This document shows positions 3,679-38,202 of a DNA stretch of 64,000 bases, piece after piece. Positions within the stretch are counted from its first letter, which is position 1, and the number at the start of each line of letters is the position of its first letter. This DNA is from Acanthamoeba sp. SK_2022b. Its lineage: Eukaryota; Discosea; Longamoebia; Acanthamoebidae. The notes beneath the pieces were generated by a model. It was not told where the DNA came from. It searched no databases and saw nothing but the letters and a program-made list of their open reading frames with translations. The stretch spans positions 233,204 through 297,203 of the forward strand of contig JANDJZ010000013.1 of NCBI GenBank assembly GCA_027943245.1, read 5' to 3'. The position numbers were made by a program, and so were the translations under genes.

Positions 3679-3753
<75 letters not shown>

Positions 3754-8077: not shown

Positions 8078-8133
<56 letters not shown>

Positions 8134-14803: not shown

Positions 14804-14859
<56 letters not shown>

Positions 14860-35779: not shown

Positions 35780-35874
35780 GCTTTCCCCCGGTCGCCAATA
35801 AAAAAAATAGCGAGAAAAATGAGCAGTGCGTGGCTTGCGCGACGATTATGCGGAAACGCTAGAGTCGGCAAATA

Positions 35875-35905
35875 TTCCTGTTCTCGGCAAACCGTGTCCA
35901 CCCAC
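35875..35905 (+). repeat. Left terminal inverted repeat of the mariner element
   Basis: It starts TTCCTGTTCTCGGCAAACCG and is identical over 31 bases to the reverse complement of 38112-38142. A TA dinucleotide precedes it. Confidence 0.97.
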
Positions 35906-36013
35906 TGGTGAGTTGGGATACGTGGGAAATAGGGTAAGAAAAAAAGGATACGCCGTGTCTGGCCTATCACGCCTGACAGTGTCGGTTTGTTTTTTTCATT
36001 GTCGGCAAACACC

Positions 36014-36958
36014 ATGGAGGACACCACCGACACCGAGAACGATGCCCTCTCTCTGTGGGGCAAGGCAAAAGGGATTAGTGATCTTCTGCCCTTCCTTCAA
36101 AGCAATGGTTTCCTCAACATCAGCAGCATCATCTATGTGACCGCTGACGAATTGAAGGAGATCGGCATGTCACGGCTGGGCGATCGAAAGAGGGTGCTTG
36201 TCGCTGCTGCCGAAGGGAAGGCAGCGTACGAGGCAGGCCTTATTGCTGCTCCTGCACCTCCTCTTCTTCCACCCGCCCCTTATTCCTATCTTTCGCCCCC
36301 AGCAACCCCCTCCTTCAGCCCTCCTTCCCCAAGCAACATGACCATCCGCGTCCCTGCGACCCGCGCACCGAAGAGATGCCGAAAGTTCTGCCACCAGCTT
36401 CTCTTCAGCGGCAAGCACACCTGCACCAAAGAAGAGGAATGTGGCAGCCTAGCAAGTTGCGGCCGCATCGATCTCCATCCCGAGGAGAAGAAACGGCGCA
36501 TGGAGGAGAAGAAGGTCGAGAAAGCAGAAGCAAAGAGGCAAAAGAAAGAAGAGGATGCAGTGCAGAAGGCCGAGAGGGATGCGCTTCTTCGTCTCCGGCC
36601 GGAGCCCATCTGGGATTCATGGTTCAAGGTTGAACTCGAGCGCCTTGTTGCCGCCCATCCCGACCTGTACTCGACCACGAAAGGGACACGCGAACGCTGT
36701 GACGCGACAGCCAAGCTTGCCCAGCGATTCACCCGCACACGGCATGCCTACAAGAGGAACAAGGCAATAATCACTAAGATCACAAGCGAATTGAAAGCCC
36801 TTTCCCGCGATCTTGCACACGACGAACAGATGGACTTCATCCGCAAGAGGAAGGCTGAATTAGAAGGAGAGGCAGATCAGCTTGTCGCAGAAGAGGACCA
36901 GAGAGAAGCAGAAGAACGGATTGCTGAAAGAGAGGGTGATTCAGATGCTGATGAATAA
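36014..36958 (+). CDS. Transposon-borne SAM-domain protein with cysteine cluster and coiled coil
   Basis: An intronless frame of 314 codons starts at CACCATGG (36014). Residues about 8-75 look like a SAM domain: LPFLQSNGFLNISSIIYVTADELKEIG, then LGDRKRVLVAA (given here in two parts). A Pro-rich linker follows, then a cysteine cluster RCRKFCHQLLFSG...HTCTKEEECGSLASCG that could bind zinc. A long Glu/Lys coiled coil (EEKKRRMEEKKVEKAEAKRQ and on) and a basic-acidic C-terminal region (WDSWFKVELERLVAAHP ... DSDADE) complete it. It lies wholly inside the mariner repeats and converges on the transposase. SAM domains oligomerise or bind proteins or RNA. An accessory role in transposition, or a captured host gene as cargo, are both possible; neither is shown. 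Confidence 0.82.
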   Translation: MEDTTDTENDALSLWGKAKGISDLLPFLQSNGFLNISSIIYVTADELKEIGMSRLGDRKRVLVAAAEGKAAYEAGLIAAPAPPLLPPAPYSYLSPPATPSFSPPSPSNMTIRVPATRAPKRCRKFCHQLLFSGKHTCTKEEECGSLASCGRIDLHPEEKKRRMEEKKVEKAEAKRQKKEEDAVQKAERDALLRLRPEPIWDSWFKVELERLVAAHPDLYSTTKGTRERCDATAKLAQRFTRTRHAYKRNKAIITKITSELKALSRDLAHDEQMDFIRKRKAELEGEADQLVAEEDQREAEERIAEREGDSDADE

Positions 36959-36967
36959 ATTGATTTA

Positions 36968-38014
36968 TTATAGCCATCCGCAGGACTCATACCAGCCAAG
37001 CATTCGGGGCATGGTGACTTTGCCGAGGATTGATACAATCGCCTCCAGAAGATTGTCGGTCGCATGGAAAGATGTGCGGAGGAGAGTTTTGAGATAGGAA
37101 AAGACCTTCTCTGCTGGGCTGAACTCGGGGGAGTACTTCGGCAGAAGCTTGTACTCTCCACCCACTTCTTCGATCATGCTTTGTGCTGTCGTGCTCGCCC
37201 ATCCGCGCTGGTGGAAGGAGCAGTTGTCCCCAAGAATGATGTCGCCATTGTGAATAAATGGGAGAATAAAAGAAATAAAATCGATGAATTTTTCGCTGTT
37301 GCTCGAGTGTGGTGTGAGGGTGAAGAGCAGAGGGAAGTCGTCATCGAGCAGTGTAAGGACTGTCACTGTCCAGCTTTCCACAATGATGTCTCGACGGTAG
37401 CGCTCCCGAAGTGGTCGTTGGCCTCGCCGGGACCAGATGATCAGATTTCCAAGATGGGTGCGGTCCACCCTTGCCTCGTCGAAGACCTTGACCCGGAAGT
37501 GGCGCTCCAACGGGACAGTCACGCGCCACAGCAGGAAGTTCTCATAGAGGTCACAGTTCGCTGGCAGCCATTTTCGTGGGTCCTCAAATGTTGCTTTCTG
37601 TCGGGAATGCTCTTGATTTAGAACTCGATTGATTGTGCTGTAGCCCCAGCGCTTGCCCGTCCACTCTTCAACACTGTTCTGGACATCCAAAATTGTATTT
37701 CCTTTTGCTCCATCCTTCATCTCCACCAACGCCACCATCAGTTCGATGTGGTGTTCCTCCATCTTCTGCTTCGCTCCTGACCCATGCTCCCGTGGGCCAC
37801 GTTCCCCCGCCTTCAACCGCCTCTTGACCTTCTTGATCAGAGATCGTGAGCATTGCAAGTTGTCGGCCAACTGCTGGTTCGTCATCTCGGGGTGGCTCCC
37901 CATTTTACTTTCGATCGCCCGCCACAGTAGCACATCAGCAACACCAGCTTGTCGCCACTTTCCTGAGTTCACCTTACGCAGGGTGGGCCTGCCCCCCTTT
38001 TCGATCCGCTTCAT
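36968..38014 (-). CDS. Tc1/mariner (IS630-superfamily) transposase
   Basis: The coding strand runs from ATG 38014 to TAA 36968, 348 residues without introns or stops. The N-terminal helix-turn-helix includes MTNQQLADNLQCSRSLIKKV, and a second one lies around SVEEWTGKRWGYSTINRVL. The catalytic triad is visible: Asp in VFDEARVDR, Asp in IILGDNCSFHQ, and Glu in KYSPEFSPAEKVFSYLK. I count 38 residues between the second Asp and the Glu, so DD38E. The frame has no disruption, which is consistent with an active enzyme that cuts at the 31-bp repeats and inserts at TA. In-frame codons extend upstream of the ATG without another ATG. Confidence 0.95.
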   Translation of the reverse strand: MKRIEKGGRPTLRKVNSGKWRQAGVADVLLWRAIESKMGSHPEMTNQQLADNLQCSRSLIKKVKRRLKAGERGPREHGSGAKQKMEEHHIELMVALVEMKDGAKGNTILDVQNSVEEWTGKRWGYSTINRVLNQEHSRQKATFEDPRKWLPANCDLYENFLLWRVTVPLERHFRVKVFDEARVDRTHLGNLIIWSRRGQRPLRERYRRDIIVESWTVTVLTLLDDDFPLLFTLTPHSSNSEKFIDFISFILPFIHNGDIILGDNCSFHQRGWASTTAQSMIEEVGGEYKLLPKYSPEFSPAEKVFSYLKTLLRTSFHATDNLLEAIVSILGKVTMPRMLGWYESCGWL

Positions 38015-38111
38015 CGACAACGTAGGTGGGTTCTGACGTTTGCCAGCAAGAATACGTCTTTTGGGGCCTATTTTTTTTTTCTTAGGTCTCTTTCGGCTAT
38101 CTGCCGAAGCT

Positions 38112-38142
38112 GTGGGTGGACACGGTTTGCCGAGAACAGGAA
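38112..38142 (-). repeat. Right terminal inverted repeat of the mariner element
   Basis: It is the exact reverse complement of 35875-35905 and is followed by TA. It ends 60 bases before the start codon of the next host gene. Confidence 0.97.
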
Positions 38143-38202
38143 TAATACAGAGCGATAAAACGAGAGCCTCAGGCCAACAACAATCAAACAGCCAGCAACA
38201 AC

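Follow-up and report, generated by a model that had tools for sequence, protein, structure and literature searches.

A two-gene Tc1/mariner lineage in Acanthamoeba with a putative SAM-domain partner of the transposase

Tc1/mariner transposons are the standard example of elements that depend on a single protein. The genome of Acanthamoeba sp. SK_2022b holds a family of them in which the transposase gene is accompanied by a second, convergent gene for a protein with a predicted SAM domain. We analyzed one such element in a 64,000-nucleotide stretch of DNA (the window; contig JANDJZ010000013.1, assembly GCA_027943245.1) and followed the gene pair through the genome, finding that it recurs in an old, diverse family, which makes the second gene look like a regular component of the transposon rather than something picked up by accident. 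Taken as a whole, the data are best explained by an old two-gene IS630-Tc1-mariner lineage whose SAM protein would serve as an accessory transposition factor in trans, a reading that we consider probable. A lineage that has retained such a gene over deep divergence offers a way to ask what a helper adds, be it end pairing, targeting or escape from silencing.

Structure, copies and decay of the window element

The TA-flanked unit spans positions 35875–38142 of the window (2268 bp; copy C205), and its parts are given in Table 1. The preliminary description was accurate on its architecture: the perfect repeats and their TAs match at 33/33 bases between the two sides, the DD38E transposase (DDE_3; D179, D263, E302) is unbroken, and the 314-codon gene facing it is a single intronless frame. 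Inside the ends lies a second inverted repeat, whose arms are 85% alike over 20 nt and which might have a binding or promoter role. The two stop codons are separated by 9 nt and sit within AATAAATTGATTTATT, a sequence that resembles a poly(A) signal whichever strand is read and has a putative role in ending both transcripts. The same two-way box is present in C918, C158, C800, C691, C379, C375 and C1038, and is partial or missing in C770, C829, C878, C381 and C456. Elsewhere in the window, long CA/GT dinucleotide arrays occupy 3681–3751, 8079–8132 and 14805–14858.

Table 1. Features of the window element (copy C205) and of the stand-alone gene C396
Feature	Position	Strand	Remarks
Left target-site TA	35873..35874	unstranded	
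Left terminal inverted repeat	35875..35905	+	31 bp, perfect
Inner inverted repeat, left arm	35935..35954	+	20 nt, between end and SAM gene
Second gene (SAM)	36014..36958	+	314 codons; ATG 36014, stop 36956-36958, one open frame
SAM domain (predicted)	36041..36223	+	about residues 10-70, approximate borders
Cys/His cluster	36377..36478	+	residues 122-155
AATAAA...TTTATT box	36954..36969	unstranded	spans both stop codons
Transposase gene (DDE_3)	36968..38014	-	348 codons; stop 36968-36970, start 38014, unbroken
Catalytic E302	37109-37111	-	
Catalytic D263	37226-37228	-	
Catalytic D179	37478-37480	-	
Inner inverted repeat, right arm	38065..38084	-	
Right terminal inverted repeat	38112..38142	-	31 bp, perfect
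Right target-site TA	38143..38144	unstranded	
Stand-alone SAM + Cys gene, C396	about 35388-36451		in C396:34136-37561

The genome comprises 45 Mb in 1129 contigs. Its profilin fits the genus Acanthamoeba, with 251 bits against 1f2k/2acg and about 226 bits against 1acf/1prq, all four being Acanthamoeba entries (1f2k/2acg from A. castellanii), compared with 117 bits for the next, unrelated chain; an Acanthamoeba 18S primer matched nowhere, possibly for want of rDNA in the assembly. Searching the genome, we found four copies of the whole element (C205, C91, C918 and C383), which are 96.8–98.4% alike, lie in unlike flanks, and share the same terminal inverted repeats (TIRs) with TA at both ends. 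The end together with its TA (31 bases, up to 3 mismatches) occurs 4+4 times in the genome, compared with 0+0 times for a reversed control, indicating that the repeat is not a product of chance; all eight matches lie inside the four copies, so no short derivative with similar ends was seen. Three of the four have an unbroken SAM frame, and C383 bears a 2-nt deletion near the SAM start that shifts the frame; the transposase is intact in C205 and C918, interrupted by one stop in C91, and affected by a large deletion and a stop in C383. Both genes are full length in three copies, C91 among them despite its transposase stop, and the fourth keeps the SAM gene; this is the outcome that the preliminary description had named as support for a genuine two-gene element. 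The description of the element as young holds for these four copies; the lineage to which they belong is old and diverged.

For C91, we identified an empty counterpart, either an allele or a paralogue, at C79:8713-8910. It is colinear with the joined flanks over 198/200 bases at 99% identity, lacks one 2-bp copy of the target, as an unoccupied site should, and reads TG in place of TA. The corresponding joined-flank search for the window copy returned its own two flanks and no empty site. TA lies on both sides in 14/14 elements with ends placed at TATTCC/GGAATA; given the TG of the C79 empty site, it is these flanks, and not a direct view of the target, that point to a duplication of TA. At the level of genome comparison, the TIR-to-TIR unit with both genes is shown to insert as one piece at TA-flanked places.

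The four copies have decayed in a biased manner. With 11 ambiguous columns left out, we counted 84 private changes, 68 of them of the C-to-T/G-to-A type; 63 of these 68 fall in CpG, whereas CpG holds 256 of the 1213 cytosines, and four of the five outside CpG adjoin an ambiguous base. This CpG-biased decay suggests a mark of CpG methylation of transposons in Acanthamoeba sp. SK_2022b. By coding effect, the SAM gene has 23 non-silent and 14 silent changes, and the transposase 18 non-silent, 15 silent and two stops; both genes look about neutral since the insertion of these young copies.

Recurrence and ancestry of the gene pair

Protein searches of the genome placed transposase matches on at least 31 contigs. 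Among the 28 with DNA around the match (C716, C747 and C662 being left out of the count), a convergent SAM partner stands beside the transposase in 18: C205, C918, C91, C383, C158, C800, C691, C381, C456, C994, C171, C770, C375, C379, C829, C878, C1038 and C670. One of these (C994) is a deletion product that keeps the starts of both genes, and two (C171 and C670) are broken. The pair spans two clades, down to about 30% identity, and this recurrence, together with the different TIRs of the clades, bears out the earlier reading of a two-gene mariner.

The remaining ten loci show no partner within flanks of about 1.5 kb, shorter at contig ends. Five of them (C1074, C661, C733, C622 and C323) are short or stop-ridden; C1074 is a degraded clade I copy whose partner side is cut off by the contig end. 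The transposases of the other five (C668, C371, C484, C520 and C15) have mostly open frames, fully so in 4/5 with one TAG in C15, indicating that relatives without the partner exist. We sought TIRs in the flanks of these five and recognized none; this distant SAM-less group, open-framed and lacking recognizable TIRs, is possibly domesticated. Conversely, C756 and C502 have a SAM gene without a transposase match. At the transposase's place to the left of the SAM gene in C502, there are open frames that by eye resemble a non-LTR retrotransposon endonuclease.

TIRs starting with TATTCC were found in C158, C381, C456, C770, C375, C994, C379, C829, C878, C1038 and C756, and in elements that keep both genes they lie outside the pair. 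The repeat of C800 is 19 nt long and misses the outermost bases; C691, C502 and C670 each have a single candidate end. The TIRs of the distant pair-bearing elements differ from those of the window element. The C381 element lies between two inverted tRNA-Pro(agg) genes, at 236-306 and 2509-2579 of its locus.

To place the loci, we built a tree from 20 transposase rows, omitting four paired loci, C91, C670, C171 and C994 (midpoint root, for drawing only). Its 14 SAM-bearing rows form two clades, clade I being the kin of the window element and clade II comprising C770, C379, C375, C1038, C829 and C878, apart from the five SAM-less transposases, which are distant (branch 1.4, support 100/100). Because the degraded C1074 sits in clade I without a SAM gene, the SAM label needs two changes on this tree and not one; 3/17 inner branches are open.

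Between subfamilies, pS is 0.71–0.81 for the SAM gene and 0.74–0.87 for the transposase, which is near saturation, and pN is 0.23–0.48 and 0.21–0.28, respectively. These ranges come from 15 clade I SAM, 15 clade I transposase and 10 clade II SAM pairs, some of whose rows are broken copies. Four close pairs were kept apart, C381–C456 (both genes), C158–C800 (transposase) and C379–C375 (SAM), and gave ratios of 0.50–0.94, as expected of dead copies. Both genes look constrained between subfamilies; set beside the neutrality among the young copies, this suggests that constraint acts on the lineage and not on each copy.

The SAM gene of clade II appears to be split. We looked at the intron site in eight loci (C770, C756, C379, C375, C1038, C878, C396 and C670), of which all but C670, which gave no reading, have a predicted 3' splice site directly preceding the D of DAEAIG, DVEAIG, DALEIG or DVIAIG. 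In five of the six clade II elements, exon 1 and a GT donor can be recognized as well, and read by eye they predict a phase-2 intron; in C878, exon 1 was not found by motif. In these elements the predicted intron sits inside the SAM domain, and clade I, as well as the SAM stretches of C583 and C87, reads through the site.

One relative of the SAM gene stands alone. C396 has a predicted intron at the same place and in the same phase as clade II and the same order of SAM domain and Cys cluster. Its contig yielded no transposase match, and the stretch C396:34136-37561 showed no TIR. In the SAM-protein tree, it joins clade II with support 100/100, against 42/55 for clade II without it; a shared ancestry of C396 and the clade II SAM genes is therefore well supported, its exact branching point within the group less so. 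C396 may be either the parent of the element's SAM gene or a domesticated copy of it. Among the 11 matches of C396, we found no other stand-alone SAM + Cys gene, save a Cys-cluster fragment at C242. The element would have acquired the SAM gene ahead of the divergence of clades I and II, with clade I losing the intron afterwards. The preliminary description had named two findings that would make the SAM gene a single capture: its absence from all other copies, which is not what we see, as other copies keep it, and an intron-bearing host orthologue outside any element, to which C396 answers in part; the recurrence of the pair in two diverged clades excludes a single chance capture all the same. 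The clade II elements and C396 thus offer a traceable case of a DNA transposon that carries a gene with an intron while a related gene stands alone elsewhere in the genome.

The two proteins and their proposed roles

The window transposase matches Pfam DDE_3 (E=5e-14), and its second D and E are 38 residues apart, giving the DD38E spacing that we also counted by eye in the clade II row C770 and the SAM-less row C668. Its best NCBIfam match is NF033545, a bacterial IS630 family, over residues 43–330 (E=3.2e-23), at 82.6 bits and thus below the curated cut-off of 100. The TA flanks, terminal inverted repeats and DDE_3 transposase are traits of IS630-Tc1-mariner elements; the single-gene habit, which is typical of the group without defining it, is broken by the second conserved gene. 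We know of no IS630 element with a SAM gene. No bacterial relative of the window transposase turned up in the genome contigs scanned with close-relative motifs, and a PDB sequence search returned one chance-level match only. For giant viruses, a scan of viral contigs by short motifs and exact patterns, which distant relatives could escape, found no SAM or transposase relative and no exact TIR.

The second protein consists of a SAM domain, a Pro/Ser-rich linker, a Cys/His cluster, a charged helix and a conserved C-terminal region. Its SAM domain, as first proposed, scores under the Pfam cut-off in the window copy itself (SAM_2, 17.5 bits against 20.5) but is firm in relatives: C502, C381 and C800 exceed the curated SAM_1/SAM_2 cut-off, and solved SAM domains are recovered by a six-sequence profile, among them the Caskin-1 tandem SAM (E=2.3e-15) and numerous Eph SAM domains. 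Taken by itself, exon 2 of C396 reaches 13.7 bits against a cut-off of 23. AlphaFold single-sequence models were poor (pLDDT 55.8 and 55.6); the low-confidence model of the SAM piece has four helices, where a SAM fold has five, and with this weak model the 18 best Foldseek matches were all SAM-bearing chains, none significant (best E 0.59). In the Cys/His cluster, C122, C126, H127, H135, C137, C143, C149 and H155 are invariant in 6/6 aligned clade I proteins, three of which are near-identical copies, and the cluster occurs in similar form in clade II and C396; it might bind zinc or DNA. The charged helix and the C-terminal region are common to clades I and II and have no clear counterpart in C396.

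The SAM protein is most likely a DNA-binding, self-associating helper of transposition. The transposase would cut and paste the element, as other Tc1/mariner transposases do, with the second protein acting in trans as an accessory factor. In this scheme, the Cys/His cluster and the charged helix of the second protein would contact DNA close to the element ends, and its SAM domain, by self-association or by holding the transposase, would help to pair the two ends or to guide the complex to its target. As a tentative extension, possible though doubtful, the elements might form a Tc1/mariner lineage of their own, in which a polymer of SAM domains is the scaffold of the transposition complex. A host gene combining SAM domain and Cys cluster would have been captured with its intron and become indispensable as a partner, the two genes sharing a two-way transcript end and one branch later shedding the intron; alternatively, C396 would be an element gene turned host gene.

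A role outside the DNA chemistry, in which the second protein counters or tunes host silencing or represses transposition, is in our estimate unlikely. Anti-silencing proteins occur in some plant Mutator-like elements, and the CpG mark in 63/68 C-to-T-type changes indicates that the host probably methylates the copies, so a counter-measure would pay; a putative DNA-binding cluster joined to a domain that often self-associates would fit this task as well. The same decay, however, shows that the four copies went unprotected, and we found no direct tie between the SAM protein and methylation. Less probable still, the SAM gene could be a passenger that serves itself or the host and has no part in transposition. 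The nearly neutral ratio in the four young copies (23 non-silent to 14 silent SAM changes), the similar stand-alone gene C396 and the five distant transposases without a nearby partner all agree with such a passenger, but any transposon gene, and so also the transposase, should change neutrally once a copy has inserted. Moreover, a passenger should be lost frequently, yet the pair persists over two clades at about 30–60% identity with signs of constraint. A single chance capture, with the SAM gene confined to the window copy or the young subfamily, might be suggested by the intron-bearing relative C396 but is ruled out within this genome by eighteen paired loci in two diverged clades with different TIRs.

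Known relatives and associated MITEs

The reading that we prefer, a two-gene lineage with an accessory SAM protein, can be set against several known systems. Bacterial IS630 is like the window element in supplying the best, if sub-threshold, NCBIfam match of its transposase. Intruder (DD38E), an animal sibling of DD34E/Tc1 with one gene, shares the spacing, although equal spacing alone is no proof of kinship. Two-gene DNA transposons such as PIF/Harbinger and CACTA combine a transposase with a DNA-binding helper protein, but they belong to other superfamilies and differ in their helper domains (e.g., Myb-like) and target-site duplications.

Within Tc1/mariner, the TBE elements of Oxytricha have three open reading frames, all of which reportedly appear to be under purifying selection (PMC3731211; also PMC3558436), and, like the Tec elements of Euplotes, resemble the window element in carrying several genes (PMC3731211, PMC3558436). 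Multi-gene Tc1/mariner elements are thus known in ciliates, and several genes are not new as such. TBE elements have telomeric-repeat ends and ANT duplications, in contrast to the TIRs and TA of the window element (PMC3731211), and we saw no SAM-domain partner in the available parts of the TBE and Tec descriptions, by which alone these elements were compared (PMC3731211, PMC3558436). A SAM-domain partner in a Tc1/mariner element is new to us; we claim no priority, the wider literature and Repbase lying outside this comparison.

Submariner_Ac1/Ac2 and Submariner_Ps1 come from Acanthamoeba castellanii and Pandoravirus salinus (PMC4495683), the Ac1 element being 1604 bp long with a transposase remnant. 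They resemble the window element as Acanthamoeba Tc1/mariner transposons with a TA duplication, 29 bp TIRs, empty-site evidence and MITEs moved in trans, but have 75–86 residues between the second D and the E, compared with 38 here, a spacing that excludes membership in Submariner (PMC4495683). The accessible portion of the Submariner text names no second gene, with 'SAM domain' and 'second open reading' occurring 0 times (PMC4495683), and 'mariner' occurs 0 times in the article on the A. castellanii genome, as far as its main text was available (PMC4053784).

MITEs also accompany the present family. The clade II end pattern has 53 matches in the genome (up to 3 mismatches) versus 0 in a control, many of them in close inverted pairs. 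We examined four such pairs (C525, C391, C379 and C944), which measure 217, 216, 217 and 217 bp and are TA-flanked in 4/4 cases; by eye, three hardly differ from one another, and the fourth has the same sequence in the opposite orientation. In each, one end aligns with 48 bases at the left end of C770 (98–100%) and the other with 46 bases at its right end (89–91%). C770 has a transposase stretch of 258 aa and SAM exon 2 without stops, and the end matches suggest that the 216–217 bp MITEs were probably moved by a C770-like element. Further close pairs of clade II ends elsewhere span 123–157 bp, and at C371:18223-20541 an inverted pair of such ends is separated by 2.3 kb, a distance that would fit a full element.
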